NCBI RefSeq assembly: GCF_004006295.1
Contig: NZ_CP026095.1
Span: 2,280,001-2,344,000, forward strand
Source: Peribacillus asahii
Lineage (GTDB): Bacteria > Bacillota > Bacilli > Bacillales > DSM-1321
Reading direction: 5' to 3'
Length of the DNA stretch: 64,000 nt
The position numbers and the translations under genes were made by a program. Positions within the stretch are counted from its first letter, which is position 1. Every line of letters begins with the position of its first letter. The notes beneath the pieces are model-generated. The model saw only the letters and a program-made list of their open reading frames with translations. It made no database searches and was not told the DNA's origin. This document shows positions 4,532 through 59,372 of this stretch, piece by piece.

Positions 4532-4792
<261 letters not shown>

Positions 4793-4888
4793 TCGTTTTT
4801 TTATTAGATATCAAGTCTCAAAAACTAAGATTACTTATGATATTGAGACGAGATGAATTTTTTATGTTTATTTTTATAAATAAATTAA

Positions 4889-15991: not shown

Positions 15992-16096
15992 ACATGAACC
16001 TCCTTGGCAGATACGAAATGTTAAGATTCGCCTCTTTTCATCAAGCTTGGTCAACAATTTAATTTTTTAAACTTCACGAAAATTATAATACAAGAG

Positions 16097-16143
16097 GGTC
16101 TAGACTTTTGTTTCATTTTCCGAGAGTGTCTAGAGCTTTGTGT
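16097..16143. promoter_or_regulatory. Direct repeat GGTCTAGACTTTTGT / TGTCTAGAGCTTTGT
   Basis: Two copies of a G-T-C-T-A-G-A-(C/G)-(C/T)-TTTGT unit, start to start 31 bp, between the divergent XRE regulator and recombinase remnant. Candidates are an operator for the regulator or a recombinase core site. Confidence 0.4.
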
Positions 16144-17217
16144 CAAAAAAGAATACGTAATTGAGTACGTTCGCTCAAAGAAAAGAGCCAAATACTCCGC
16201 TTCTACCCTTCTTGGTTACGTCCATGAATATATGAAATTTTTCAATTGGTTACAACATGAAGGTATTTCGAAAGTTGAACATATTCGAGATACCCAGCTC
16301 TCTGTTTTAGAAACATTAACCAAGAAAAATGCAGAGTTTTACAAAGAATTTTTAGAAGAAGAAATCATAAGCACAGAGAAAGAAAAAGAACAAGGAATTA
16401 TAAAAAAGCGTTCTGTTGATGCTGTTGCAAGGAATATTAACGCCATTAAGTCCCTCTTCAACTATCTTACTACAGAGACTGAAAATGAAGAAACTGGTGA
16501 ATGCTACTTCTATCGCAATGTCTTTAGTAAAATTAAAGTGTTTAAAAAAGATGAAACAGCAGACGAGCAAAAAAAATAAGCTCTATTATTCTTACCAATC
16601 AAGAAATCAATGAATTTTTAGTATATCTAAAAGATAGATATGAGCATTCTCTAGAAGCACGACAAAAAGCCTCCTTCCTGCGAGATAAAGAAAGAGATAT
16701 TGCTTTAATTAGTATGATGCTTGGCAGCGGTATTCGAGTGAGTGAAATTGCCTCATTAACATTTAAAGATATTAATTTACAAAAAGAACAAATCGATATT
16801 ATTAGAAAAGGTAATAAGGCAGATACGGTAGCAGTCCTCCCTTCTGCCTTAGAGGATTTAAAAGATTATTTAGGGATTCGAGATTTAAGGTATCCTGGTT
16901 CCAAACAAACACCTTATGTTTTCGTATCGAAATATGCAGGTGCTTCAAGACCCCTCTCTGTAAGAGCAATTCAAAATTTAGTGAACAAGTATACAGGGGC
17001 CTTTAATTCACAAGAACAGTTTGATTCTGGACAATCTTTAAGCCCCCATAAATTAAGACATAGCTTTGCTACAGAATGGATTAAAAATGGCGGTAATATT
17101 ATATTGTTGCGCGATCAATTGGGACATAACTCAATTGAAACAACACAAAAGTATACGAATTTATCATCCGAAGAAAGTAAAAAAGTTATGAAGGATATTG
17201 AAAAATCTAGAGATTAA
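16142..17217 (+). pseudogene. xerS: XerS-type tyrosine recombinase, frameshifted and 5'-truncated
   Basis: The first part (VIEYVRSKKRAKYSASTLLGYVHEYMKFFNWL and ISKVEHIRDTQLSVLETL) matches the N-terminal SAM-like domain of Firmicute XerS. The frame breaks near 16575; the catalytic domain resumes before 16714 with GSGIRVSEIASL (catalytic Arg), HKLRHSFATEW (His-x-x-Arg), LGHNSIETTQKYT (His and nucleophile Tyr). All five catalytic residues are present but are separated from the DNA-binding domain by the frameshift. The first about 30 residues and a start codon are missing. XerS normally resolves chromosome dimers in streptococci; here the copy is dead. Confidence 0.7.
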
Positions 17218-24674: not shown

Positions 24675-24755
24675 ATTAAATTAACTTAATAAACCTTGAT
24701 GAAAGAGCAAATAGAAAAGCGTGTTTTGAAAAAAATTGATCAAAACACGCTTTTT
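24675..24755 (+). repeat. Remnant end with hairpin (INxxNxDER family)
   Basis: Reads INLINLDERANRKACF in one frame, then a hairpin AAAAGCGTGTTTTG/CAAAACACGCTTTTT (24715-24728 and 24741-24755). Related copies are at 46320-46400 and 57625-57690. The hairpin can act as a terminator for upstream transcription. Confidence 0.5.
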
Positions 24756-29246: not shown

Positions 29247-29352
29247 ATTCGTAAAATAGGTATTATACGAACAATTGAAAAGTGTATTATAAATCCCCTT
29301 TTACTCAGAAGGGTTCGTTAAATTGGGATTTAACGCGAAAAAGTAAAATCAA
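29247..29352. repeat. lox/res-like palindrome within a ~105-bp repeat, copy 1
   Basis: ATTCGTAAAAT (29247-29257), spacer AGGT, ATTATACGAAC (29262-29272), then AATTGAAAAGTG and AATCCCCTTTTACTCAGAAG. The same block occurs at 46889-47000. Confidence 0.65.
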
Positions 29353-29460
29353 GAAAATGCCCTCTTTTGTACAGATGTTAAATGACGATTGACACAAATC
29401 TTTAGACTTTTGAACTGGTTACTTGAAAAAGAAAAGAGCGTTTCCTGTGTTCCAGAAACG

Positions 29461-46319: not shown

Positions 46320-46400
46320 ATAAAAATAGTGCCGTGAGCCTAGATAAACGAACAAAGGAAAAGAGCATGTTTTGAAAAAAATATTACTCAAAACATGCTC
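46320..46400 (+). repeat. Remnant end with hairpin (xxDERxKRKSxF family)
   Basis: Reads RFNKNSAVSLDKRTKEKSMF then stop. The codons GAGCATGTTTTGA overlap a hairpin AGAGCATGTTTTGA/TCAAAACATGCTCT. Homologous in both coding and hairpin parts to 24675 and 57625. Confidence 0.5.
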
Positions 46401-46733
46401 TTATTGTGGTTACCCTTTTTTATTTTTAACATTGAGTTAGCATTTGCTTGAAATTCATAGGGTACTTTAACTTCTTCAACTGTACATCCGCTATCAGCGA
46501 GATAATTGAATAATTTATCTAAAATGTTCATATCGTTTCCCTTCCAAATCAATTAAAGGGAAAATGCGAATTTCCTCTTTAGTAACCCTCAATAACTCGT
46601 TTATCATTTTTATATGAAATTGGTAATCTAATCGATCAGCATACATAAAAAGAAGAACTATTTTTCTATTTCGATAATAAAGCTTTCCTTCAAAAAGTGG
46701 AAAACCAATACTTTTTGAAGGAGAGCTTTGGCT
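46388..46733 (-). pseudogene. C-terminal remnant, perhaps a SAM-dependent methyltransferase
   Basis: Minus-strand frame FPLFEGKLYYRNRKIVLLFM, YADRLDYQFHIKMINELLRVTKEEIRIFPLIDLEGKRYEHFR ends, then a +/-1 frame continues LDKLFNYLADSGCTVEEVKVPYEFQANANSMLKIKK. The pattern D-x-(L)-x-Y-x-F-H-...EL-RVTK-E-RI-P-(I/L)-x-L-G-x-Y ... V-YEF-x-NANxML-I resembles the end of a Bacillus methyltransferase family. A good ribosome binding site (GGAAGGGA) before MNILDKLFNYL could still yield a 47-residue peptide. Confidence 0.4.
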
Positions 46734-46888
46734 TTATAATATCTATTAAGACAAATACGTACCTATTCAAGACTAGAATATATGAGCTTTTATATAACTA
46801 GAACTGTAGTACAAGAATGTATAGGCCTTTGTGTCACTCGTCAACTCTTATTATTATTTAGAACATACTATCCGTAGGATACAATATT
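46734..46888. other. AT-rich intergenic DNA
   Basis: No gene. TACAAGAATGTATAGGCC and TTTGTGTCAC recall the direct repeats near 16097 but the match is partial. Confidence 0.3.
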
Positions 46889-47000
46889 GTTCGTAAAATC
46901 GATATTATACGAACAATTGAAAAGTGCATTATTAATCCCCTTTTACTCAGAAGGGTTCGTTAAATTAGTGTTTAATGCGAATATAAAATTAACAAAGAAC
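46889..47000. repeat. lox/res-like palindrome within a ~105-bp repeat, copy 2
   Basis: GTTCGTAAAAT (46889-46899), spacer CGAT, ATTATACGAAC (46904-46914), then AATTGAAAAGTGCATTAT and CCCCTTTTACTCAGAAGGGT, matching 29247-29352 with few differences. It lies directly outside the left end of the Tn7-like transposon. Confidence 0.65.
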
Positions 47001-47017
47001 CTGCCAATGAGTTGTTC

Positions 47018-47252
47018 AATTGATCAATGACATGAAAGTAAGTCCCTTTTATGACATGAAAATAAGTACATTGTAAAAATAACAGTATTTTATATTACTT
47101 GGTATCTATATCGTCATACATATTTCTTACTTTCTTGTCACTTAAAAGACAAGAAAGTAAGGAAATTTTTACAAAGATACTTCTACATGATATAGCTTTT
47201 TTACAAAGACAAAAAGTCTAAACTTCATCTTTTAAACTGACAAGAAAATCTA
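47018..47252. promoter_or_regulatory. Left transposon end with TnsB-type boxes
   Basis: Boxes: TGACATGAAAGTAAG (47028-47042), TGACATGAAAATAAG (47052-47066), inverted CTTACTTTCTTGTCA (47126-47140), AGACAAGAAAGTAAG (47147-47161), TGACAAGAAAATCTA (47238-47252). Confidence 0.75.
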
Positions 47253-47340
47253 CATTATTTCTAGACGAGCTTCCTTTCCTGATTAACTAACCTACATTTT
47301 ATTACAAGACTGTACAAAATTTTTTCTGTTTCACGACAGA

Positions 47341-47502
47341 GTAAAAAATCAAATTAAAAAACTATCTGATAAAGAACTATCTGAATTCTTAATTGATTGG
47401 GATTATGCTAACCCTAAATGTACTTTCGAACTTATAAAAACAGGTTTATTGTTAGGCTATGCCCTTGAATCCACTTTTGCAATTATGTTGAGATTTGATT
47501 AA
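47341..47502 (+). CDS. Small cargo frame, start uncertain
   Basis: 53 codons (VKNQIKKLSDKELSEFLIDW, then DYANPKCTFELIKTGLLLGYALES) ending at TAA 47502. Strongly protein-like, but the frame continues upstream without a start codon or ribosome binding site, so it is either 5'-truncated or starts at a rare codon. Family unknown. A small hairpin AAGAACCTG/CAGGTTCTT (47517-47538) follows. Confidence 0.4.
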   Translation, partial: VKNQIKKLSDKELSEFLIDWDYANPKCTFELIKTGLLLGYALESTFAIMLRFD

Positions 47503-47545
47503 AAATAAGGTTAAAAAAGAACCTGTTTTCAGGTTCTTCTCATAT

Positions 47546-47710
47546 CTATTCTTTTAATTCATTAACTCTACCTGCAATAAGGTTTAAGCCATCTCTGATT
47601 TCCTCTAACACGACAATTTGACTCGCAGTTTTCCAAGCTATAATAGATAGACTTACTGCTATAACAACTAAACACGCAACCTTTATGAATTCCAATTTGT
47701 TCTGTTTCAT
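47546..47710 (-). CDS. 54-residue single-pass membrane protein
   Basis: ATG 47710 with GGGGGATGA upstream. MKQNKLEFIKVACLVVIAVS continues as one transmembrane helix (about 8-27) followed by an amphipathic, acidic coiled segment (QIVVLEEIRDGLNLIAGRVN). Plausibly expressed cargo of the transposon; function unknown. Confidence 0.6.
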   Translation of the reverse strand: MKQNKLEFIKVACLVVIAVSLSIIAWKTASQIVVLEEIRDGLNLIAGRVNELKE

Positions 47711-47925
47711 TAGTTCATCCCCCTTGGTTAAGTTCGCTGAATTTTTTCTATATTCCGCCTTTTCAGTTCTATTATCTATTTTTAATATACCATTTTATCA
47801 GCTTTTTGGTAAAATTCATTAAATTACAGCAAACTATACAACAAATATATCCAAAACCATTAAGGCCTTACAGAACAGGTTCTCTATCCACGTTTACTGA
47901 ACGTTCTATTTTCTAAATAAAAAAA

Positions 47926-47947
47926 CGGCCTAATTTACAAAAGGCCG
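47926..47947 (-). terminator. Terminator of the secreted cargo protein
   Basis: CGGCC/GGCCG with 12-nt loop, followed on the minus strand by seven T; 40 nt after the stop codon. Confidence 0.75.
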
Positions 47948-47988
47948 ATAAAATTTTAATAGTCTTATAATACTCGGTAATTAGTTAA

Positions 47989-49026
47989 TTATTTGTTTAT
48001 ATAGGCAATAGCATTCAATTCTGTATCGTAGCTTGCCGCACTATTTCCTAATTTGAAGTCAATACTAGGTGCCCCATATGTTAGAGTAAACCCGTCAATA
48101 GAAATTGGAGCAGTATCAATTTGATGTGTAAACGCTCCCATAATATTCACTGTAGAAGAGGAATAATTCGTATTTGTCAAAGTAAAATTAAACCAAGCAT
48201 TGTGTCTTAAGTTAACTACATAGCAAAATTTTCCGTTAGTATTATAATTATTTTTTAAATTCTGCACCAACGCAGCTCCACTAAAAGAAGCATTTGTCCA
48301 ATTTCCACTGCTAGCTGAATACTGAATAGTGTCAGAAGCATAGTTTGGGTAAAAACCACCATATGAATCATTCGCATCTACTTTCCAATATTGCGTACCG
48401 CCTCTTTTAGTATGGTCAGCAGTCCAATAGCTTGGATATCTAATTGAAGCACCGAGAACATCCATTTCTCTGTTTTTCGGAATAGTTAACCACTCAAGGG
48501 TATTATTCGCTCTGTATGAATTGGTGGCCAACTTTGAAATCACCGTTGTTATCCTTTTATAAGAAGTGTAGTCAGTACCAGTCTCAGTTCCTAACGCTGA
48601 AAAATCGGAATTTTTCTTGGCTCCTTTTTCTTTCGCTTTCTCCTTCGCTTCTTCTTTCTGTTTCTTATTCTCTATCTCTGCCCCAAGTTCAGCCTCTTCT
48701 TTTGTAACTTCAATAGATTCAGACTTAGGTATTTTCTTGCCAGACGCATCTTGTTCATACGAAGTTGTTGTTTTTATATATTTGGTAGATTTTGAGATTT
48801 CAGTTGCTTTGATATCCTTATTTAATTTAAACGATTCTTTGTCCATAATTTGGATATCCAAATCTTCAAATCCCTGTGATAATAGATTATCATACTCCGC
48901 TTTAGTCATTTTAATCCCATTATCATTTACATAAAAAACTGGTGACTGTGCATTAGCAGATGTCGTAAAACTAAAACCCAACGCTAAAAATAAAGCTCCA
49001 TAAATTACTGCTAAAATCTTTTTCAT
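47989..49026 (-). CDS. Secreted cargo protein of unknown function
   Basis: 345 residues. Signal peptide 1-26 (ILAVIYGALFLALGFSFTTS, cleavage after ANA). Residues about 27-140 are charged, with a Lys/Glu-rich helix (EIENKKQKEEAKEKAKEKG). The C-terminal about 200 are beta-rich with many Ser, Asn, Thr and Tyr (YRANNTLEWLTIPKNREMDV, GASIRYPSYW, FTHQIDTAP). This layout resembles secreted Bacillus proteins of a DUF type, but I cannot name it. No sortase or lipobox. GGAGGAGGAG upstream of ATG. Confidence 0.75.
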   Translation of the reverse strand: MKKILAVIYGALFLALGFSFTTSANAQSPVFYVNDNGIKMTKAEYDNLLSQGFEDLDIQIMDKESFKLNKDIKATEISKSTKYIKTTTSYEQDASGKKIPKSESIEVTKEEAELGAEIENKKQKEEAKEKAKEKGAKKNSDFSALGTETGTDYTSYKRITTVISKLATNSYRANNTLEWLTIPKNREMDVLGASIRYPSYWTADHTKRGGTQYWKVDANDSYGGFYPNYASDTIQYSASSGNWTNASFSGAALVQNLKNNYNTNGKFCYVVNLRHNAWFNFTLTNTNYSSSTVNIMGAFTHQIDTAPISIDGFTLTYGAPSIDFKLGNSAASYDTELNAIAYINK

Positions 49027-49522
49027 ATTCTCCTCCTCCGTTGTCTTTGGAGGACTAAGGAGTATTTTGTTTATGTAAGAAAAAAAGAATTGACTATATC
49101 TGTATAACCATTAAATAGAATAGTCAAACGATATAACACAACAATAATTGTTGCCAATAATACATAGTATAAGCACCAATATAAGACTAATAAAAGTTTT
49201 TCATCCATTCTTTTTTTATCATTAGATGCTTCTTACACCCCGTCCGCCTTACAACAAATAACACTATAACATAATTATGGGTGTACTGTAAATTGGATTT
49301 TTTAGAAAGTTTTGTTATTTTTATTATCAAACTTTTTTAGTGCTCAGCACTTATTTAAGTATTAATAGTATGAACAAAAAGGAAAAATTTATAGGTCAAT
49401 TGAATGACATAGCCCCTTAGTAAAATATAAAAAGCTAATATGATTAGCCTTTTTAATTTACATTTGTTAATCTAAAACAATAAAAATTTGGTTTCAGAGG
49501 CAATTAATAAACTGCCAAAAAA
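49027..49522. other. AT-rich cargo intergenic DNA
   Basis: No gene found. It contains the promoter region of the minus-strand secreted protein and a short hairpin GCTAAT-ATG-ATTAGC at 49434-49448 followed by T. Confidence 0.4.
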
Positions 49523-49540
49523 GATGACAGTCGAGTCATC
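49523..49540 (-). terminator. Terminator of the small-peptide unit
   Basis: GATGAC/GTCATC with a 6-nt loop and, on the minus strand, a following run of six T. Lies 13 nt after the 26-residue peptide gene. Confidence 0.7.
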
Positions 49541-49552
49541 ATCATCTTTTCT

Positions 49553-49633
49553 TTAAATTCCTGAAGAAATCATACCAAAGAAGATTATTCCCCCTTCGAT
49601 AATAATAAAAATGGTAAGCGATATATTAATCAT
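49553..49633 (-). CDS. 26-residue hydrophobic peptide
   Basis: ATG 49633 with GTGGGGT upstream; MINISLTIFIIIEGGIIFFG then MISSGI. One membrane-spanning stretch with a central Glu-Gly-Gly. Followed directly by a terminator, which supports it as a real gene rather than chance. Confidence 0.5.
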   Translation of the reverse strand: MINISLTIFIIIEGGIIFFGMISSGI

Positions 49634-49661
49634 ACCCCACAGTATTAATTTCTTAAAACAA

Positions 49662-49748
49662 CTAAGTAAATTGAAAAAAGTAAGCCAAATAATAATAAAC
49701 TAAGTGAGATTTGTATAGTGAAAGTGATATTCCGACAAATTTTTTCAT
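49662..49748 (-). CDS. 28-residue peptide or frameshifted small membrane protein
   Basis: AAAGGAG lies 8 nt before ATG 49748 (MKKFVGISLSLYKSHLVYYY). A different frame over the same DNA reads ICRNITFTIQISLSLLLFGL then LFSIYLVVLRN to 49645, a much better transmembrane helix. A one-base indel just after MKK would join start and helix, so the gene may be damaged or the helix frame may use another start. It sits 12-30 nt before the 26-residue peptide gene. Confidence 0.35.
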   Translation of the reverse strand: MKKFVGISLSLYKSHLVYYYLAYFFQFT

Positions 49749-49971
49749 AAAAATACTCCTTTCTACTTTCCTGATGATAATAGAAACAAAAATTAATAGG
49801 AGTAAATGGAAAATCATTCAAAGTCGGCCGAGTTTTCACAATTTTCATAATCATTATTTACTAGGATATTATTAACTAAAATGAGTTAAAAGTCATTATA
49901 AATCTATAATTTTCCATATTTATAAAGTATTTGTAGTATAAAAGCTTCAGAAATATCTAATTTACTAAAAT

Positions 49972-50014
49972 GTAATAATTTGTCTACAAATTATTACAGG
50001 TAGTAGTATATAAT
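49972..50014 (+). promoter_or_regulatory. Palindromic operator and -10 box of the protease gene
   Basis: GTAATAATTTG (49972-49982), TCTA, CAAATTATTAC (49987-49997) is a perfect 11-bp inverted repeat. A consensus TATAAT lies at 50009-50014, but the -35 position (about 49986-49991, ACAAAT) is poor and falls within the palindrome, so a regulator bound there could activate or repress. Confidence 0.5.
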
Positions 50015-50137
50015 TAGACATATTTGGCATTTTTTTCACAAAATAAGAGGGTGTGATAAATAAAAATATTGTTTTCTGAATCTCTATATCTGTAATACTT
50101 GTTCTAGTAACAATAAATTAAAAGGGAGATGCTAAAT

Positions 50138-51262
50138 TTGAAAAGAAAAATATTAGCCTTAGTAAGTATACTTCTATTATTTATTACATTTGTTCATCCG
50201 AAAATTGGTAATGCTCAAAGTATGAAATCATATCTTGTTGGTTTTAATAATATTGTTAATGAATCTCTTATTTCAAAACATGGTGGTAATGTAAAAGAAA
50301 AGTATAAATCTATACCAGTTGTATCTGCATATTTAACTGATCAAGCGGTTCAGTCTTTGGCAAATGACCCTAACGTTTCTTACATAGAGGAAGATGCACA
50401 AGTCCATAGTTTGGGTCAAGAGGTACCTTGGGGTGTACCACATATTCATGCGGATGATGTAAACCAACTTGGTGGAACTGGTTCGGGAGTTAATATAGCA
50501 GTTATGGATAGTGGTATTGATTATACTCATCAAGATCTTAATGTAGTCGGTGGAGCAACTTTTGTTAATGGAACGCTTAGTTATATAGATGAATATGGTC
50601 ATGGAACGTTTGTTGCAGGTATTGTTTCAGCATTAAACAATGACCTTGGAGTTGTGGGCGTTGCTTCAGAAGCAAATTTGTATTCTATTAGGGTTCTGGA
50701 TAAATACGGAAATGGAAATTTTAGTGATGTAATTTCTGGTATTGAGTGGGCTATTTCTAATAATATTGATATCATCAACATGAGCTTTGGAAGTAATATC
50801 GGCTCGAAGTCTTTAAAAAAGGCAATAGATAAAGCTTATAATGAAGGTATCCTTATGGTTGCTGCTGTGGGGAATGATGGATATAGTAAAAAAGGAAATG
50901 TTAATTATCCAGCTAAATATAAGTATGTTATGGGTATAGGTGCCATTGACCAAAATAATATAATTGCTGATTTTTCTAGTAACGGAAAAGAAGTAGATTT
51001 AGTTGCTCCTGGTGTCCTAGTCAACAGTACGTATATTAATGGGTATGCTATTCTTAATGGAACTTCTATGGCTGCACCATATGTTACGGGTGTTGCTAGT
51101 TTATTAATGCAATTAAACCCTGAACTTTCAAATATAGCAATTGAAGAAATTTTAAATCAGTCCGCTGAACCACTTGGTGACACAGATTTATACGGAAATG
51201 GACTAATCAATGCTTTAAATGCTTACCAATATTCACAAAATAATGTTAATAAGTTCAAATAA
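50138..51262 (+). CDS. Secreted subtilisin-like serine protease (S8)
   Basis: 374 residues. Signal peptide about 1-27 (ILALVSILLLFITFVHPKIG), an I9-type propeptide (SYLVGFNN ... YIEEDA), then the S8 catalytic domain with Asp124 (VMDSGIDYTH), His155 (GHGTFVAG) and Ser310 (NGTSMAAPYV); the oxyanion Asn is in AAVGNDG. It ends soon after the domain, as in alkaline subtilisins. AAAGGGAG at 50121-50128 is too close to ATG 50129, so TTG 50138 is the likely start. Cargo of the Tn7-like element. Confidence 0.9.
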   Translation: MKRKILALVSILLLFITFVHPKIGNAQSMKSYLVGFNNIVNESLISKHGGNVKEKYKSIPVVSAYLTDQAVQSLANDPNVSYIEEDAQVHSLGQEVPWGVPHIHADDVNQLGGTGSGVNIAVMDSGIDYTHQDLNVVGGATFVNGTLSYIDEYGHGTFVAGIVSALNNDLGVVGVASEANLYSIRVLDKYGNGNFSDVISGIEWAISNNIDIINMSFGSNIGSKSLKKAIDKAYNEGILMVAAVGNDGYSKKGNVNYPAKYKYVMGIGAIDQNNIIADFSSNGKEVDLVAPGVLVNSTYINGYAILNGTSMAAPYVTGVASLLMQLNPELSNIAIEEILNQSAEPLGDTDLYGNGLINALNAYQYSQNNVNKFK

Positions 51263-51287
51263 AATACTTTGATTGTTGATTTTGAAT

Positions 51288-51330
51288 AAGCGTATTTGAA
51301 GAAGTTTTACTTCAAATACGCTTGTTTTTT
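51288..51330 (+). terminator. Terminator of the protease gene
   Basis: Perfect 14-bp stem AAGCGTATTTGAAG and complement (51288-51301, 51310-51323) followed by GTTTTTT. Confidence 0.85.
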
Positions 51331-51387
51331 AAGGCTCTGTTTAAATTAATGAGCAAACTTACAATAAATTGTTTCATTTCGATATGC

Positions 51388-51809
51388 TTATTCAACAGAA
51401 TCACCACCAAATTGTTTGTAGGTGAAATCAATAGATTCCGCCCTATCAATTGCTATTTGTTTGAATTTTTTTGGTTCAACCCAATCTTCTGGTTTAAACT
51501 CGTCAATAGGTGCAACTTCCATTAGTACACTTGGATGCTTAGCTACTACATCTTTAACAATTTCAACATATTGCTTATAATAGGCTTCTTTTTGTTCTTG
51601 AGTTAATTCTAAAGGGGGACTGACGCAACATCTTCTTTATTGGTATTAGGTAAAGTTTCAACTTCTACATCTTGTCCATGAAATACATCTTCAGTTACTT
51701 TTACCTTTTCTTTCACCTGTACTTCTTCCTCTGATTCCTTATTTACACTACATCCTGTTAAAACGATAGCTCCAAGTAATACTCCTAGATACATAAATTT
51801 TTTCAACAT
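51388..51809 (-). pseudogene. Lipoprotein, one-base frameshift
   Basis: Starts MLKKFMYLGVLLGAIVLTGC with lipobox LTGC, so it would be anchored to the membrane outer face. After NTNKEDVASVP the frame ends, while another frame continues PPLELTQEQKEAYYKQYVEI, VAKHPSVLMEVAPIDEF and FTYKQFGGDSVE to 51388. The break lies in a run of five C. The joined product would be about 140 residues; function unknown. Confidence 0.65.
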
Positions 51810-52160
51810 TCACACCTCCATATAATTATTGTGAAACTATCCCTATATTAGTTTGTGGTGTTCAAAATCCAACTGCAATTAAACATGGTATACTTACATA
51901 ATTTAATCGATTTTACCATTTTTTAATATTTAACATCTCAAAAAAAAGAAAATAAATTGAATTTTGTTGAACCAACCTGTCCTAAACAAGATTTTTCTTG
52001 AGATACTTCCTCTAGTAAATGGCTGGTTTAATGAAGTAACATGCAAGAGCATTATAAACATTTGACAACATAAAAATGAAAGATCCACATTATATTTTAT
52101 CTGAATTCAACAACCTGTCTGTGTTTAGGTCAAGAAAAGTGAATATTAACTACTTATTTA
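51810..52160. other. Intergenic DNA between cargo and transposition genes
   Basis: AT-rich; no gene. AACCTGTC occurs at about 51973 and 52109 as a short direct repeat. Includes the promoter side of the lipoprotein gene. Confidence 0.4.
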
Positions 52161-53729
52161 CTATCTCCTTTTATCTATTTTATCCATTACTATTTGAATA
52201 GGTGATTTAAATGACGGATACATTTTGTTTTTATTTATGGGACAATTCACTTGATCACTAATGTCTTTAATAAGATTTTTCATGTATTTAATACGTCCAC
52301 TAGGAAAATAAAAAACAATTTCTTTTTTGGAGTTTCGTGGGATTTTCGCGAGGTACATAGGAATGGTATCATCAGGATGGAGTCGTTTAAATTTTTTTGG
52401 ATTTTGTATTACCTCTAGCCACTTTATATAACGCTCAATTAATAAATGTGAAACAATTTTATTTAAAATATAATTTATGCTGCTTACATTACAATTAAAA
52501 AAATCAAATTCTTCCTCTCTACTAATAGGATTTAAAACTTCTTCTAGGTGTGTCATAAATGTTCCATGAAGAAATATACTAAATCGTTCTTTTATCCATT
52601 CAAAGTCATAGGTTTCGTGTACTTTTGTATGTATTTCTATTTCCCATGGTGAATCTATTCCCTCGCACTCCATTTTCCACCAAATAAATGCTAATGCATG
52701 AGGACAAACATCTCCGTTTTGACGTGCCTTATTGAATATTTCAACGCATTTCTTGTGGTCCCTAATAATATTACGTAATATAAATCTGCTTATAGCCTTA
52801 TAAATAATTCTAGTTTGTTTATAAATCTCAAAGAAAAAACTATCAATTTTATGTTTTTCGTTGAATCTAAAATCTGAAAATTGGCGAGAATAAGCCTTTA
52901 AATAATTTTCCTTTAACAATCTATAATCATTTTTTATTTTTAAGATTCCTTTATTAGAGGAAATTTTAATTATTTCCTTACTTTTGGGAGATTTATCATA
53001 AAAGGCATGAATCATTAATTGGGGTATCATCGTCAAGTAATCAGTGTTATTAATAACAAAGTATTTTTTGTAATTATCAAAGGGGTAAATTAAATGATAT
53101 TGATAAACTTTTTCGCGAGGTAAATTTAACCATGAATTTATGATTGTGTTTTGAATTTTAGGTTGATTTTTCCATGATAAAAATATAGATCTTATATTTT
53201 CTGAATCAAGAAAGTGATGACCGCAGCTACATCGGAAAGCCTCTTTAAATCCTTTATTAATAAGATATTCTGGCATTAATTTATTACATCTTACACACCT
53301 TTCAATTAACTTTTGTTCTGGATGAAAAGCACAGTGATCAAAAATTATCAGTTGGTGTAAAATACTATGATATCCTTTACTTAAACAAATTGGGCAATAT
53401 GACAAATTAGAATGAAAATATTTACTTTCATACTTAATATTAGGGATTTTATGGATTAGTTTATCTACTAATTTTGCATGATACTCTTTTAGATCTATTC
53501 CAATAATCTTTTGACTTAATTCTGAATCAATGCTGAAAAAATAAATTAGATTTCGGTGGCTGCTGCCAGCATTTGAAATACTTTTTAATTGTTTCACATT
53601 TTCATTTCCGATTAATTCTAAAATAGTATTTCCATCAATAACATTAGCATAGCTAAACTTCTCTAATATTCCCCAAGGAGATTCGTAATCTTGGATCCAT
53701 TCAATAGACCAATTAAAGTGAAAATTCAT
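52161..53729 (-). CDS. tniQ: TniQ/TnsD-type target-selection protein
   Basis: 522 residues. After an N-terminal about 110-residue region comes the TniQ zinc-finger array CPICLSKGYHSILHQLIIFD, HCAFHPE, CVRCNKLM and CSCGHHF (about 117-175), then a long helical C-terminal DNA-binding region. In Tn7 TnsD recognises the attachment site and recruits TnsC. The length (about 520) fits TnsD rather than the short CRISPR-linked TniQ. AAAGGAG before ATG; 16 nt from tnsC. Confidence 0.8.
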   Translation of the reverse strand: MNFHFNWSIEWIQDYESPWGILEKFSYANVIDGNTILELIGNENVKQLKSISNAGSSHRNLIYFFSIDSELSQKIIGIDLKEYHAKLVDKLIHKIPNIKYESKYFHSNLSYCPICLSKGYHSILHQLIIFDHCAFHPEQKLIERCVRCNKLMPEYLINKGFKEAFRCSCGHHFLDSENIRSIFLSWKNQPKIQNTIINSWLNLPREKVYQYHLIYPFDNYKKYFVINNTDYLTMIPQLMIHAFYDKSPKSKEIIKISSNKGILKIKNDYRLLKENYLKAYSRQFSDFRFNEKHKIDSFFFEIYKQTRIIYKAISRFILRNIIRDHKKCVEIFNKARQNGDVCPHALAFIWWKMECEGIDSPWEIEIHTKVHETYDFEWIKERFSIFLHGTFMTHLEEVLNPISREEEFDFFNCNVSSINYILNKIVSHLLIERYIKWLEVIQNPKKFKRLHPDDTIPMYLAKIPRNSKKEIVFYFPSGRIKYMKNLIKDISDQVNCPINKNKMYPSFKSPIQIVMDKIDKRR

Positions 53730-53745
53730 TATTTTTTGTTCTCCT

Positions 53746-54723
53746 TTAAATAGATTCTATGAAATCCTGATAACTTGAATTAATTATGATTTCTCTCCAA
53801 TGTCGAATGGTAATCCATTCTAAGTTTTCACCATCAGAACCATATGTACGAAAAACGTCGTTAATGATATTCGTCATATAGTACATAGGAATTTCTATTT
53901 GAACGTTCTTCCGCATTTTTTGATGTACCTCTTCAAATACTGTCCAAATATCATCAACTGATCGAACTAACCGTTTTCCTTTTGAAAAACCCAAAGGAAA
54001 ATAGTATCGTGTATAACTCCATTTACTATTAACAGGATATTCAGTAGCTTCATCATAACCCATTAGCAAGTAAGCCAAGTAATCTTTACTTATTATCCCT
54101 GTAAATTGATATTGATGTACCATAAAACGGCCAATTATTTGACGTTGCTTTGTTTCGGTCATTGAATTTCTTTTAAGCTTCAAATCGGATTGACCTATTA
54201 AAATTGATGTCAGTTTAATATCATATTTATCTAAGTCATTAAATATATCCATTAACCATTCATATTCAATTGTATTAAGACGTTGTGCATCATCAATAAA
54301 TAATAGAACTTGTTTTCTTCTCGAATTCAATCCTGAACTTAATAGATATTGAAAAACTCTATTTCTTTTTTGAATCGCATTTCCTTTTTCATGTAATTCA
54401 TGTTCTAAGTCTTTTAGTAAGTAACTAAAAAAAGCATTTTCATTTGGTCTTTGCATAGCCCGACAATTAAAAGAGAATATGGGCAATTTGATTTGATCAT
54501 CTAAAGTAAAAAGTCTTTTTAAGTATTTAACTGCATATGTTTTACCTAAACGCGGATCCCCATAAATAATTGCACCGGGCAATTTATTCATAATCCATTT
54601 TTCAATAGTATTATATAAATTTACAATTGTGAGTGTATCAATGATATATTCATAGGTTTCAACTGGATGGGTCTGTGCTACTAAAATAGGTCTTTCAATG
54701 CTTAGTATTTGTTCAACATCCAT
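53746..54723 (-). CDS. tnsC: TnsC-type AAA+ regulator
   Basis: 325 residues with Walker A GDPRLGKT (55-62), Walker B LLFIDDAQ (140-147) and sensor-like LIGQSD. It forms ATP-dependent filaments on target DNA and bridges TniQ to the TnsAB transposase. Shorter than Tn7 TnsC (555) and similar in size to other Firmicute TnsC/TniB proteins. AAAGGA upstream; 20 nt from tnsB. Confidence 0.85.
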   Translation of the reverse strand: MDVEQILSIERPILVAQTHPVETYEYIIDTLTIVNLYNTIEKWIMNKLPGAIIYGDPRLGKTYAVKYLKRLFTLDDQIKLPIFSFNCRAMQRPNENAFFSYLLKDLEHELHEKGNAIQKRNRVFQYLLSSGLNSRRKQVLLFIDDAQRLNTIEYEWLMDIFNDLDKYDIKLTSILIGQSDLKLKRNSMTETKQRQIIGRFMVHQYQFTGIISKDYLAYLLMGYDEATEYPVNSKWSYTRYYFPLGFSKGKRLVRSVDDIWTVFEEVHQKMRKNVQIEIPMYYMTNIINDVFRTYGSDGENLEWITIRHWREIIINSSYQDFIESI

Positions 54724-54743
54724 TTTAGTCTATTCCTTTCCCA

Positions 54744-56690
54744 TTATTGATTAAATGTTATCCGTTTTTTATTTAAATTTCTCAAATTGTGCGGTGAAAT
54801 TGCTTTTTTATCAAATTCTAAATTACTGTCATCCAATATTTGTGAAGTTAGTTTGTCTTTATTATCATTCATATCTTTTATTTGAGTTTCTAAATTTGCA
54901 AGTTTATTCCTACTTGATTTGTTAGTAATAGCTTTTGTTTTTAAATGTTTATGAAAAACTTCAATAGGATCTTCATAATCTGATAAATAAAGCTCTCCAG
55001 TATTTCTTAATTTATTAATTTGCTTTCTAGTTTGTAACGTATGAGGCTGTAATGACCATTTTCCTTGAGCTATTAATATACCTAATTCCGAACCATCAGG
55101 TAAAAATGCTTTTACTGTTCTTAAATCCTTAGTATCAACTAATAATGTTAATTTTGTTTTCACTAAATGATAGCTATCTGATAATACATTATTTCGATAC
55201 TTTACACCTTCATAATAGATATAAGGTCGTCTCCCTTTCTTTAAGTCACCAGAAATAACTCGTTCTATTTGGATTGTAGAAAAGCTAATATTTTCTGAAA
55301 TAATTCTTGGATAAACCCCTTTTTCCAATCGTTGTTGCATAAGTTCTAGAGGTGTTAAATGATAAATACCACTTTGCGCAGTCCCATTTTGTTCGAATAT
55401 AAGCACTTCTGCTAAATCCATTATTTCTTCATATGTGATTTCATACTTTTTCGCTTTTTGTTCTGGATTTTGCCTTCTAGGATCTTTGGGATTGTTACCT
55501 GTTGTGCTAATTATTCTTTGAAATCCATTTGCCTCAAGTAAATGGAACATTTTCTCAATGATTGGTCGTCTAGTAGGCGTAGCTACTGGTCCAATATTTA
55601 TACTACAACCAATCATTCTTTTTAATTTTTCTTCTACTTGTTTAGCTAAATTTGCTTTAGCATTATCAAACGCTATTTCATCCCATACAGCATACTTTGT
55701 TTCTGCAATAACCTCTGAAGGGAATCCACCATGTTTAGGATATTTTAATCCTGTTATAACAAATTCTTTTGGTTTCCATGGTTTAATAGCATTTTCAATA
55801 CAATTTAGAACATCATACTGGGAATACTCTTTATTTAAACAGATATGATAGCCTAAAATTGTTCTAGTAGCTACATCAACTATCATTAATAACCAAATGC
55901 GACTCATTTCTCGTAAAATTATATCTCCTTCTGGTGAAATAAATTTAATCGTCATGGCTGCGTCAATCTTATGTCCATCAAATTCAACTCTTTGAAATGG
56001 CCGAATAATATTTTCTGTTTTTTGTCCTTTGCCTGTTGTGTGATGCATTGTAGTTGCATCATTACCTTGATCTTTAATTATTGAGGACATATTTTTCATT
56101 CGAAAATTATTAATATACCTATATAATGCTCGTTTTCCTTGATCAGATGTATTAAAAGGATACTCTCCTGCTTCAGCCCTTATCCCTAATGAACGACAAG
56201 TTTTTAAAAATTCTCGATGTAAGTATTTCACTTTAATAATTGGTTCAGTAATATCAATATTTCTTCTTAAATAGTAGGTTTCAATGGTTGTTTTTAACTG
56301 GGGATAATCCTCTAATAATTTATTAAACGCTCCACTAAAATTAGATTCATCTGAAATAATATTTCCATCAGAAGTTTTTTCTCTTTTGTATGGCTTAATT
56401 CTTTTATTAGGTATCAATGCTCTATAACCATATATTTCATTATTTTCATCTAACATAAAACATCTATCAACTAACCTATATAATTCTGTTTTACTAACAC
56501 CTGTACATTTATATATTTCTTTTAAAGAATGTTCTCCGTTTATATACATATCTACTGCTACTTTTCTTTTTTGAAACAGGAATTTATGATTATCAGATAA
56601 CCTATCTTCTAATACAGCTGCCCATTTGGATGTATCTAAAAAATCAGGAGATAAATCAAAATATTTATCCAAAAGGGTTCTGTTTTTCAT
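54744..56690 (-). CDS. tnsB: TnsB DDE transposase
   Basis: 648 residues. N-terminal DNA-binding domains (about 30-75 HTH, HSLKEIYKCTGVSKTELYRLV; about 110-220), an rve core with first Asp in RVEFDGHKID, second in WDEIAFDNAKANL and Glu in TRRPIIEKMFHLLE, then a Mu-type C-terminal beta-barrel (RPYIYYEGVKYRN) and a coiled tail for TnsC contact. It makes the 3' cuts and joins. Start overlaps tnsA by 26 nt, implying coupling. Confidence 0.9.
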   Translation of the reverse strand: MKNRTLLDKYFDLSPDFLDTSKWAAVLEDRLSDNHKFLFQKRKVAVDMYINGEHSLKEIYKCTGVSKTELYRLVDRCFMLDENNEIYGYRALIPNKRIKPYKREKTSDGNIISDESNFSGAFNKLLEDYPQLKTTIETYYLRRNIDITEPIIKVKYLHREFLKTCRSLGIRAEAGEYPFNTSDQGKRALYRYINNFRMKNMSSIIKDQGNDATTMHHTTGKGQKTENIIRPFQRVEFDGHKIDAAMTIKFISPEGDIILREMSRIWLLMIVDVATRTILGYHICLNKEYSQYDVLNCIENAIKPWKPKEFVITGLKYPKHGGFPSEVIAETKYAVWDEIAFDNAKANLAKQVEEKLKRMIGCSINIGPVATPTRRPIIEKMFHLLEANGFQRIISTTGNNPKDPRRQNPEQKAKKYEITYEEIMDLAEVLIFEQNGTAQSGIYHLTPLELMQQRLEKGVYPRIISENISFSTIQIERVISGDLKKGRRPYIYYEGVKYRNNVLSDSYHLVKTKLTLLVDTKDLRTVKAFLPDGSELGILIAQGKWSLQPHTLQTRKQINKLRNTGELYLSDYEDPIEVFHKHLKTKAITNKSSRNKLANLETQIKDMNDNKDKLTSQILDDSNLEFDKKAISPHNLRNLNKKRITFNQ

Positions 56691-57342
56691 TTAATTTCAC
56701 CTCTGTTTCATTACCTAACCTTACAATATCAATATTTGAAAACAGTATTTTTTTGTAAATAAGAATATAAATGATTTTTAATATTATATTTTTCATTATA
56801 TTTGGATTTGAAATAAATATTTCTTGAAATGTATATGCTCCATTATAAATAGAGTTTATAACGCTCAGAATATCATTTGAAGGAATAAGATGACTATCTT
56901 TAAGATGTGGTAGTATTACTTTTTGATTTTCAAGTAAAATCACATTTGAACGGATATCTAATTCTGTTAATACGCGGTGTTCAACTCCGTTTACATCACA
57001 CCATTCTCGTTGTATATTAATTTGTTTTTGAACTTTCTCAAATCTGGGGCTTGATGGTAGTAAATCACTAGAGTATTTTATTTCTACAAATTTTTCTGAT
57101 TCATCTTTATATTGTATCCACATATCAAATATAGAAGAATGTTGCTTACCGTTATAAATACCATCAACTTTTAAAGGCTGTTCACAAAAATTCTCCACTA
57201 GATAATTTGTTTCAATTAAAACCCAATAATCATACTCAAGTGAACTACTTAGATATACATCTCTTTTTATTTTTTCACTGAAAGCTTTCCATCGATTGTT
57301 ACCATATTTATTAATTGAGTTCATTACAATAGGTTTATACAT
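56665..57342 (-). CDS. tnsA: TnsA endonuclease
   Basis: 225 residues from ATG 57342 (AGGGGG upstream); the longer frame to 57372 lacks a site. The TnsA PD-(D/E)XK core shows the order SSSLEYDYW, FCEQPLKV, SIFDMWI (catalytic Asp73) and FVEIKYSSD (Glu87, Lys89). The C-terminal winged-helix part follows (VILLENQKVILPHLKDSHLI). It makes the 5' cuts, so transposition is cut-and-paste. Separate from tnsB, unlike fused TnsAB proteins. Confidence 0.85.
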   Translation of the reverse strand: MYKPIVMNSINKYGNNRWKAFSEKIKRDVYLSSSLEYDYWVLIETNYLVENFCEQPLKVDGIYNGKQHSSIFDMWIQYKDESEKFVEIKYSSDLLPSSPRFEKVQKQINIQREWCDVNGVEHRVLTELDIRSNVILLENQKVILPHLKDSHLIPSNDILSVINSIYNGAYTFQEIFISNPNIMKNIILKIIYILIYKKILFSNIDIVRLGNETEVKLNEKQNPFG

Positions 57343-57427
57343 CACGCACCCCCTTTTGCTAAAAAATACCATATTAAATTTATTCTCTACAATAAAAACA
57401 AATCCCTTTAAAAACTGAAAAATAGTT

Positions 57428-57563
57428 CTTACATTCTTGTCTCAATAACAAAAAGTTCTTATTTTCTTGTCAAAAATTTTTGACAAGAAAATAAGAACTT
57501 CAGAAGAATATATAAATAATAGTCACAATTACGGTGTCCTTACTTTCATGTCATTAATCAACA
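57428..57563. promoter_or_regulatory. Right transposon end with TnsB-type boxes
   Basis: Boxes: CTTACATTCTTGTCT (57428-57442), CTTATTTTCTTGTCA (57458-57472), TGACAAGAAAATAAG (57481-57495) and terminal CTTACTTTCATGTCA (57539-57553), then TTAATCAACA to 57563. The 57458 and 57481 boxes form a near-perfect palindrome. The tnsA promoter must lie here, so TnsB binding could autoregulate the operon. Confidence 0.75.
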
Positions 57564-57624
57564 CTTGTAAAAGGATAAAAAAGTTTTTAATCCTTATCTT
57601 GTGTTACTTTAGAACAATGTTTGA

Positions 57625-57690
57625 TCAAATTAATACTAATAATATTGATGAACGAATAAAAAGAAAGAGCGTGTTTTAAAAAAGTTTGAT
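57625..57690 (+). repeat. Remnant end (INTNNIDERIKRKSVF family)
   Basis: Codes FDQINTNNIDERIKRKSVF then stop, homologous to the remnants at 24675 and 46320, followed by GTTTGATCA, a decayed hairpin arm. Lies just outside the transposon end. Confidence 0.45.
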
Positions 57691-57708: not shown

Positions 57709-57820
57709 CTCCACAATCGCGCCCAATTGTTGAAGATCAAAGGCTGTTGCAGTTAGCCCGTACTTATTTAACTCTAGCCCCCGTTAATGGAATAACATTT
57801 TTATCTTGCAGAGAAACCGT
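57709..57820 (+). repeat. GCGCCC / CTAGCCCCCGTTA dispersed repeats
   Basis: ACAATCGCGCCCAATTGTTG at 57711 and TTTAACTCTAGCCCCCGTTA, ATGGAATAACATTTTTAT at 57768-57805. The first matches the 13924/23405 family; the second resembles 18196-18214 and 26284. The remaining 57821-57924 holds the HAD gene promoter region. Confidence 0.55.
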
Positions 57821-57924
57821 CTCTTGCTCCCAAATAAACTTCACTTAATCTATACACTGAGTTTACTAGACTTTAATATTCAGATGATACGATTGGTTTA
57901 GCAACGAATGAGGAGGCAGTATAA

Positions 57925-58722
57925 ATGAATGTGCGTGCAATATTTATTGATATGGATGGTACACTACTAAAAGCCTCAAACTACATTTCTCGCCGAAATA
58001 TGGAAGCCATTTATAGGCTCATTAATCAGGGAGTCAAGGTTTTTCTAGCCACTGGTCGACACTATGAAGTAACCGCTCCCTACCATAAAGAAATTGGATT
58101 ACGGACTCCGATGATCTGTCTGAATGGTGCCGCTATTCACGCTGCAGAGACAGGAAGAGTTATGCAAATGCGAACCGTCCGATTGAACGAAGAACGATTT
58201 CACCATCTGACCGCTGAAAGTCCTTATAATGTTATTATCCATACAGCAAATGGGCTTTATTGTAAGGAAACAAATGAAGAAATCGATTATTGGACAAAAG
58301 TTGGGCAAATTCCGCCACGGTATATTGGAGATTTAAGACAGGCAAATTATCAAGATGTTCTTAAATATAGTGTTCGAACAGGTACATCAAGTCCTGAATT
58401 AACCGCTTTGTTTAAAAAGGAAGCAGAAGTCATCGATTGGAATGACGGGTTTGAGATAGTTGCTCCTAATGTTTCCAAATGGTCTGCTATACAAAGCTTA
58501 CTTACCGAATTTGGAATTAGTCCAAATGAAGTCGTAGCCATTGGAGACGGACCTAATGATATAGAAATGCTTCGTCATGTCGGTATTGGTGTGGCAATGG
58601 GAAACGCTAGCGAAAAGGTTAAAGCATCCGCTGATATTGTTACAGGACACCACGAAAATGATGGATTAGCTGAGTTTATAGAACGTTATCTTCTTAAAAC
58701 ATATAAATCATATGCGATTTAG
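57925..58722 (+). CDS. Cof-type HAD-IIB phosphatase
   Basis: 265 residues. Motif I DMDGTLL (Asp9, Asp11), motif II ATGRHYE, motif III Lys in NVSKWSAIQ, motif IV GDGPNDIEML, with a C2b cap domain between. Cof-like enzymes dephosphorylate sugar phosphates, FMN or similar metabolites in the cytoplasm. GAGGAGG upstream of ATG; monocistronic with a terminator after. Confidence 0.9.
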   Translation: MNVRAIFIDMDGTLLKASNYISRRNMEAIYRLINQGVKVFLATGRHYEVTAPYHKEIGLRTPMICLNGAAIHAAETGRVMQMRTVRLNEERFHHLTAESPYNVIIHTANGLYCKETNEEIDYWTKVGQIPPRYIGDLRQANYQDVLKYSVRTGTSSPELTALFKKEAEVIDWNDGFEIVAPNVSKWSAIQSLLTEFGISPNEVVAIGDGPNDIEMLRHVGIGVAMGNASEKVKASADIVTGHHENDGLAEFIERYLLKTYKSYAI

Positions 58723-58752
58723 AATTCTTTTATAATGAATTTTTGTAATAAA

Positions 58753-58800
58753 AAATGACAGGTGTGATTCATACCTGTCATTTCAGTTTGTCAACAAACT
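58753..58800 (+). terminator. Terminator of the HAD gene
   Basis: AAATGACAGGT/ACCTGTCATTT (58753-58763, 58773-58783), immediately followed by a second small hairpin CAGTTTGT/ACAAACTG. Confidence 0.7.
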
Positions 58801-59012
58801 GAAGCTTTTATATTAAAGAAGCTTTTCCTTCTTCCTATTCATTTTTTCATAATTCTACCTGTTCAAAAAGGTCCACTGCATAGGAGTTTTCTTTAACTAG
58901 CGGTCTGTTCACACATCGGTTCAAATTCACTTTATCTTGCAATTCCCTGAAATTATATGGTTAACAAAAAAATAATACAAATCACTACGAAGAAGCACCA
59001 TATGCAGCGGGA

Positions 59013-59327
59013 ATGAATTTTGGTCTTGAAGAGGTAGAACCTTTTTTAAAACATTTATCCTCCTCAATATTGGATTCAGGTTTTAATCAAGATGAAATCA
59101 ATACTATTCAATCTGAAATTAACACAATGAAAGAAGACAACGAAGTAAAAGAAATTGGAACCTTTGATGTTATTTATAAAGGACAACCGACAAAAATACG
59201 GATTCAAGCTGAAATTCATATTGAGGATGTTGACAAAGAGGTTGTTCTATATATGTTTAGTATTCAAGAATTAGTTGACATCATAGATGAGGAAATGCTG
59301 AAAACTGAAGATGAACGAGAATTTTAA
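59013..59327 (+). CDS. Small acidic hypothetical protein, possibly 5'-truncated
   Basis: 104 residues from ATG 59013, acidic and mixed alpha/beta (FDVIYKGQPTKIRIQAEIHI). No good ribosome binding site precedes the ATG. The frame stays open and protein-like upstream (YEEAPYAAG) to a stop near 58964, so the original N-terminus may be lost. Family not recognised. Confidence 0.4.
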   Translation: MNFGLEEVEPFLKHLSSSILDSGFNQDEINTIQSEINTMKEDNEVKEIGTFDVIYKGQPTKIRIQAEIHIEDVDKEVVLYMFSIQELVDIIDEEMLKTEDEREF

Positions 59328-59372
59328 GCAAAAAGAGATGTTGTAAAGAACATATAGAATATTCCTACATGT

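Follow-up and report, generated by a model that had tools for sequence, protein, structure and literature searches.

The known proteins of the TniQ/TnsD type mark conserved genes, tRNAs, res sites or CRISPR-guided sites, and a Tn7-like element in the chromosome of Peribacillus asahii raises the question of what else such a protein may mark. The element lies in a stretch of 64,000 nucleotides (nt; contig NZ_CP026095.1, positions 2,280,001 to 2,344,000), hereafter the window. It is 10.5 kb in size and looks complete, with a four-gene transposition system in the order tnsA-tnsB-tnsC-tniQ, matching ends and about 5 kb of cargo, as an earlier note on this DNA had described; its boundaries are set here to 47021–57560, the matching ends being trimmed by a TG-N6-GACA rule derived from relatives. 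The absence of an attachment gene at the junctions, also remarked upon earlier, was confirmed: the nearest gene to the left encodes an RHS-repeat protein, that to the right a HAD hydrolase.

The element very probably belongs to a Bacilli-wide family of TnsABC and TniQ systems that inserts beside Xer-type sites, with the left end 35–50 nt away from the site and a 5-bp target duplication. The missing attachment gene would be explained in this way, since the apparent target, an Xer recombination site, is non-coding. The idea in the earlier note that TniQ might recognise something other than a gene end is supported by the Xer-type sites that recur at the left ends of relatives. The particular target suggested there, a repeat ending in DERxKRKSVF, was rejected: it was not seen at those junctions of relatives that were read, where an Xer-type site recurs instead. 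The DERxKRKSVF stretch (about 57640–57679) resembles, by eye, hairpin-like repeats at 46339–46402 and 24694–24754.

Xer-type sites at the left ends of relatives

Relatives were gathered by TniQ, giving 30 proteins (query included) and seven named loci. TniQ relatives were present in 2 of 43 genomes of the family (the element's own genome and one remnant), 13 of 397 of the order and 15 of 398 of the class, the own genome being counted each time. Eight plasmid records contained any TniQ match, one of them near-full, while a scan of viral contigs with the TniQ alignment yielded no relative and the phage collection no match. The left end is defined as the end opposite tnsA. Tips were placed by eye using the TG-N6-GACA rule, which gave 18 measured rows with the window counted once.

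In all 18 measured left ends, a 28-bp tyrosine-recombinase-type site lies 35–50 nt outside the tip, with a mean gap of 45.6 nt. Twelve of these sites are dif (gaps of 40–50 nt), one is dif-like (48 nt) and five are of the XerS type (35, 38, 44, 48 and 50 nt). The left end faces the AGTTTAC arm (the XerD arm) in 12 out of 12 dif rows. By the tip rule the gap is 49 nt in L068 and L073, and the shifted duplication of L068 would bring it to 45 nt; in L038 it is 45 nt, or 44 nt with its own shifted duplication. A decayed locus with a gap of about 50 nt (L043/G039; L015 is the same place as L043) was kept outside the count. For resolved members with an intact, aligned TniQ, identity to the window TniQ lies between 23% and 65%.

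Matching flanks of 5 bp were seen in three relatives at dif. In a 7-kb Virgibacillus element (L032), both ends are readable, the left end lies 45 nt from the dif site AGTTTACATAATATTTATTATAGGAACC and the flanks at dif read CGGCT; in G306, whose two ends are on different contigs, they read TCAGA. G652 is flanked by AGACA, a match that is less telling because the tips themselves end in AGACA. After a shift of the tip, matching flanks were also obtained in L068 (TGGAC, 4 nt) and L038 (ATTAT, 1 nt).

With the Bacillus subtilis dif sequence (PMC3025954) as the reference, the loci scanned first showed sites with 1–7 mismatches in the window and in six others, two of which are the same place. A site in L036 with 8 mismatches was taken as chance. 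Of 26 TniQ-bearing genomes, 12 contained a match to a dif pattern, 10 of these a single one; the pattern reversed, used as a control, matched in none of the 26.

The XerS-type sites extend the same spacing to other recombination sites. In Niallia (L037), where TniQ is a fragment, the left end is separated by 50 nt from one such site, and another stands directly before a gene identified as XerS by NCBIfam. In L042, the gap is 44 nt and the site immediately precedes a tyrosine recombinase gene; in L044/G135, it is at 48 nt; and on plasmid pNY3A (L045, CP079755), at 35 nt. The plasmid is recorded as coming from Klebsiella, a host label that is doubtful; it carries this Bacillus-type element with a CBASS-like gene set upstream of tnsA. 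In the Niallia locus, a nucleotidyltransferase/HepT pair (PF18765, PF01934; 13454–15536), toxin-antitoxin-like, sits between the two XerS-type sites beside the XerS gene, an arrangement reminiscent of the dif modules on Acinetobacter plasmids.

It might be argued that the terminus region merely tolerates insertions, so that nearness to dif would reflect weak selection rather than targeting, and the terminus region in the window does hold traces of more than one element. We regard this as highly improbable, given that the gaps in the 18 rows spread over only 15 nt, that all 12 dif rows share a single orientation, and that the XerS-type sites and the plasmid site show a like spacing.

Several observations nevertheless weigh against targeting of Xer-type sites. 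The 18 rows were selected because tip and site were both readable, and for this reason the spacing evidence is no blind test; no reading of tip and site was obtained in 13 elements, namely L031 (contig ends), L035, L036, L064, L065, L069, L070, L071, L072, L075, G495, G597 and G449. In L034, the dif-like site would have the opposite orientation, and no direction can be read from the XerS-type sites, which are near-palindromic. G595 and L037 are without a target duplication. The match of G652 to the dif pattern is not the site adjoining its element, which diverges too far from the pattern; G353 is a remnant 217 kb from dif; in G050, dif is empty and TniQ is on another contig; and G413 and G230 have a left end at dif that could not be tied to the TniQ found in these genomes. 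On plasmid pNY3A there is, in addition, a dif-like site that lies about 475 bp from the tip and not at the standard spacing. The loci G536, G614 and a second one in G659 were outside the sample. An automated search for left ends in eight stretches found two (G652 and G595) and returned five without a left end, including L064 and L071; G135 was read by eye.

TniQ as the candidate reader of the site

In the four complete elements closest to that of the window, TniQ shares 62–68% identity with its counterpart in the window, as against 37–49% for TnsA, TnsB and TnsC. The TniQ model reached a predicted local distance difference test (pLDDT) score of 86.5 with a wider alignment (57.9 in the first model). 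Foldseek with this model returned nothing under an E-value of 0.001, while VIA-align matched TniQ/TnsD structures over about residues 1–240, the best being TnsD 8v32, and gave nothing convincing for residues 290–480, in the C-terminal half.

In the mechanism that we propose, TniQ would do the recognising, reading either the 28-bp Xer site itself or the recombinase that occupies this site; TnsC would then direct TnsAB to a point about 45 nt away. An alternative is that TnsB, alone or together with an Xer recombinase, chooses the site and TniQ is a mere bridge, as has been proposed for IS1202 transposases near dif. Insertion sequences (IS) of the IS1202 family rely on a single TnsB-like transposase and are found at a distance of 5 bp from the XerC site of dif or pdif (PMC10132070), which lends this proposal some weight. 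Here, in contrast, the spacing is 35–50 nt, the dif rows lie on the AGTTTAC side and, in the four closest complete elements, no other transposition protein is as conserved as TniQ, and we therefore consider a choice made by TnsB improbable.

The earlier note had proposed placing TniQ and TnsC in a Tn7-family phylogeny. This was carried out in part, with an alignment for TnsC and, for TniQ, a tree within its own family and without Tn7 reference proteins, in which 4 of the 18 inner branches are starred and the order of the distant members is unsure. The window TniQ falls in a well-supported set of six, together with three proteins from elements at dif (L032, L033, L038), one at an XerS-type site (L045) and one unread because of contig ends (L031). 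The occurrence of TniQs of one tight clade (about 60–70% identical) at both dif and XerS-type sites suggests that the recombinase, or a core layout shared by the sites, is recognised. It is quite possible, although we put it forward tentatively, that TniQ does not read a single DNA sequence but senses the Xer recombinase on the core site, or this site in its synapsed form. If so, the element would home to whatever dimer-resolution site the host chromosome or plasmid uses.

The window copy and its rearranged flanks

The window copy would have inserted at an XerS-type double site (46888–46982). Its near half, site B (46955–46982, minus strand), is a candidate target lying 38 nt outside the left tip, decayed to 4 mismatches from TTCGTWWAATNNNNATTWWACGAA; because this level is reached about twice per Markov window, the weight of site B comes solely from its position and from a copy with 2 mismatches at 29314. 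The farther half, site A (46888–46915, minus strand), is a perfect match to the motif at 105 nt outside the tip, and a level of at most 1 mismatch was reached in 0 of 3000 Markov flanks. After insertion, the near site would have decayed, and a rearrangement would have replaced a flank and removed the duplication.

A reading of the left-flank double site as a res site of a serine resolvase was dropped in view of the XerS gene of Niallia, which has such a site directly in front of it. The exact motif TTCGTTAAATNNNNATTTAACGAA occurred in none of 299 genomes and in one viral contig, and was read as chance.

An element-free copy of the double site (29248–29337, plus strand; halves at 29248–29271 and 29314–29337) is an 88% repeat of 46890–46996. 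The direct copies at 29248–29356 and 46890–46996 (88%) are 17.6 kb apart and could serve as a recombination pair. The window also contains a broken gene for an XerS-like tyrosine recombinase (16148–17211, plus strand), in two pieces with one stop, one sharing 45% and the other 34% identity with the XerS of Niallia; the 5' side of this region (16060–17211) starts, by eye, at two TnsB-type repeats of another element end.

Three features of this copy count against insertion beside an Xer-type site: the site at the right spacing is decayed while the intact site A is farther off, the target duplication is absent (tcaat on the left, acact on the right), and the chromosomal dif of the same genome, 42 kb from the element, is empty. 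This unoccupied dif (4766–4793, plus strand) has 2 mismatches to that of B. subtilis and coincides with a sign change in GC skew. We rate the claim for the family above that for the window copy because the half-site at the right spacing has decayed, and we read the lost duplication as a later rearrangement because the relatives L032, G306 and G652 show matching flanks. The suggestion of decay, made in the earlier note for a target gene, is partly borne out: the candidate site and both flanks are damaged and the duplication is gone.

Beside the genome's own dif, at about 4540–4700, is a remnant that by eye resembles a LAGLIDADG gene (PF14528), and a complete LAGLIDADG-type gene abuts the right end of the Robertmurraya element.

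Both flanks of the window element are rearranged patchworks. On the right, the block with the HAD gene (57715–58952) has a 97% copy outside the window, and 58953–59353 has a 97% copy elsewhere, about 4 kb from an oppositely oriented TniQ remnant. Five bp (acact) past the right end lies what appears to be the tip of another Tn7-like element (57566–57586, plus strand), which differs at one position from TGTAAAAGGACAAAAAAGTTT, the sequence of the right tip in both L032 and L038; this tip matched once in the window and in 0 of 10 Markov windows. Judging from its sequence, a second Tn7-like element once abutted the window element. A Cytobacillus relative shows a similar abutment, although in that case it is a tip of the left type that stands 5 bp beyond its right tip. 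In L033 (6020–6120; L039, 10100–10210) and, near the right end, in L066, the right tip is likewise adjoined by ends of other elements, either directly or at a distance of 5 bp. It may be common for the same Xer site to be hit repeatedly.

Such rearrangement leaves room for a different history, in which the window copy was not inserted in place but beside dif or another site, and was carried here by inversion or by recombination between copies, so that its left flank is accidental. The lack of a target duplication fits this history, as do the oppositely oriented TniQ remnant 52 kb on the other side of dif, the duplicated blocks at the right flank, the repeat at the left and the second element tip at the right end. 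Against it stands the XerS-type double site right at the left flank, with one half at the expected 38 nt, and we hold a carried copy to be rather unlikely, preferring insertion at the double site followed by rearrangement.

The remnant corresponds to the C-terminal part of TniQ (L016 7007–7140; 2232913–2233137 of the same chromosome by protein match), lies about 52 kb beyond dif in the opposite orientation, and is near what by eye is a truncated alcohol dehydrogenase gene. In a close relative, a fused frame (P0025) joins the start of a luciferase-like monooxygenase to a TniQ piece that is 92% identical to the window TniQ over a third of its length; this fusion is a sign of rearrangement.

A comparison with genomes lacking the element, as the earlier note had recommended, did not yield the uninterrupted junction: positions 46880–47000 were compared with 36 genomes of the genus and, besides the own genome, only G002 and G022 gave matches, which were partial. 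Orthologues of the HAD gene in G003, G009 and G010 were considered as a guide to the junction, but they match only from about 57764 and so do not give it.

Ends, transposition genes and cargo

The inverted ends carry several TnsB-type repeats, as in Tn7-like transposons. The left end (47021–47169, plus strand) consists of the tip TGATCAAT followed by GACATGAAAGTAAG, with further TnsB-type repeats at 47027, 47051, 47124 (inverted) and 47146. The right end (57426–57560, minus strand) has the tip TGATTAAT followed by GACATGAAAGTAAG, TnsB-type repeats and a perfect 48-bp palindrome (57453–57500).

The four transposition genes lie on the minus strand. The tnsA gene (56665–57372) was recognised by PF08722 (1.2e-12, 48.7 bits, cut-off 26.5), and its product matched the solved structure of a TnsA-TnsB fusion weakly (7.5e-4). 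The assignment of tnsB (54744–56690) follows from its position and from 39–50% identity over long matches to the tnsB of syntenic relatives; its rve score of 15.1 bits (E-value 0.029) is under the cut-off of 32.6, and a search of the PDB gave no match. The product of tnsC (53746–54723) matched AAA_22 (9.8e-12) and TniB (3.2e-5, 23.9 bits, cut-off 22.4), and a sequence search of the PDB gave no meaningful match. The tniQ/tnsD-type target selector gene (52161–53729) encodes 522 amino acids.

The cargo comprises a lipoprotein-like open reading frame of 66 amino acids (51609–51809, minus strand), with no Pfam match above the cut-off; an S8 subtilase with an I9 propeptide (50129–51262, plus strand; PF00082, 3.3e-57); and a secreted-looking protein of 345 amino acids with no family assigned (47989–49026, minus strand). 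Another TniQ of the family (L069) also has an S8 protease nearby (14520–15581), 32.5% identical to the subtilase of the window. None of the resolvase (PF00239) matches in the genome falls inside the element.

Comparison with known systems and significance

The element resembles Tn7 in its tnsA-tnsB-tnsC-tnsD gene order, in having TnsD as the best fold match of its TniQ, in its TG...CA tips with arrays of TnsB-type sites and, in some relatives, in the 5-bp duplication. The two differ in which end points to the target, that next to tnsA in Tn7 and that opposite tnsA here; the target would be an Xer site and not the end of glmS, and the insertion in the window is not downstream of glmS.

Two other groups of elements are known to hunt recombination sites. 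Tn5053 targets the resolution sites of resolvases via its only TniQ, according to the part of PMC11406308 available, and the Tn5053/Tn402 res-site hunters share with the present family a single TniQ and a site-specific recombination site as the target. They differ in that TnsA is present here and no resolvase was seen in the element, and in that they use the resolvase res sites of Tn3-type transposons, as opposed to the tyrosine-recombinase dif and XerS sites considered here. Members of the IS1202 family (ISAjo2 group), called dif site hunters in passages of PMC10132070, are likewise found near dif or pdif with 5-bp duplications and a TnsB-like transposase; these, however, are one-gene IS of 1.5 kb located 5 bp from the XerC side, compared with four genes, 10.5 kb and gaps of 35–50 nt in the present case.

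A further link between Tn7-like elements and tyrosine recombinases is the TnsF selector of Tn6022-like elements, described in passages of Faure 2023 (PMC10293859) as resembling tyrosine recombinases such as XerH. These elements are also Tn7-like, but TnsF targets comM. No TnsF-like gene was recognised in the window element, and the C-terminal half of its TniQ is without a convincing fold match. The words dif and XerC do not occur in Faure 2023 (PMC10293859) or in PMC11406308, and none of the 12 passages covered, out of 23, in Benler 2021 (PMC8649781) names a dif or Xer target. Among the literature matches listed, judged by title, abstract or passage and with most subscription papers outside the collection, no TnsABC and TniQ family aimed at dif or XerS sites was found.

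If the targeting proposed here is true, a dif-marking TniQ would provide Tn7-like elements with a safe harbour that is present in most circular chromosomes and some plasmids, and such elements could be found by looking about 45 bp from dif. The old question of how Tn5053-type elements sense recombinase-bound sites would become testable in Bacillus subtilis, and the biology of Tn7 would be joined to Xer recombination and replication termination.

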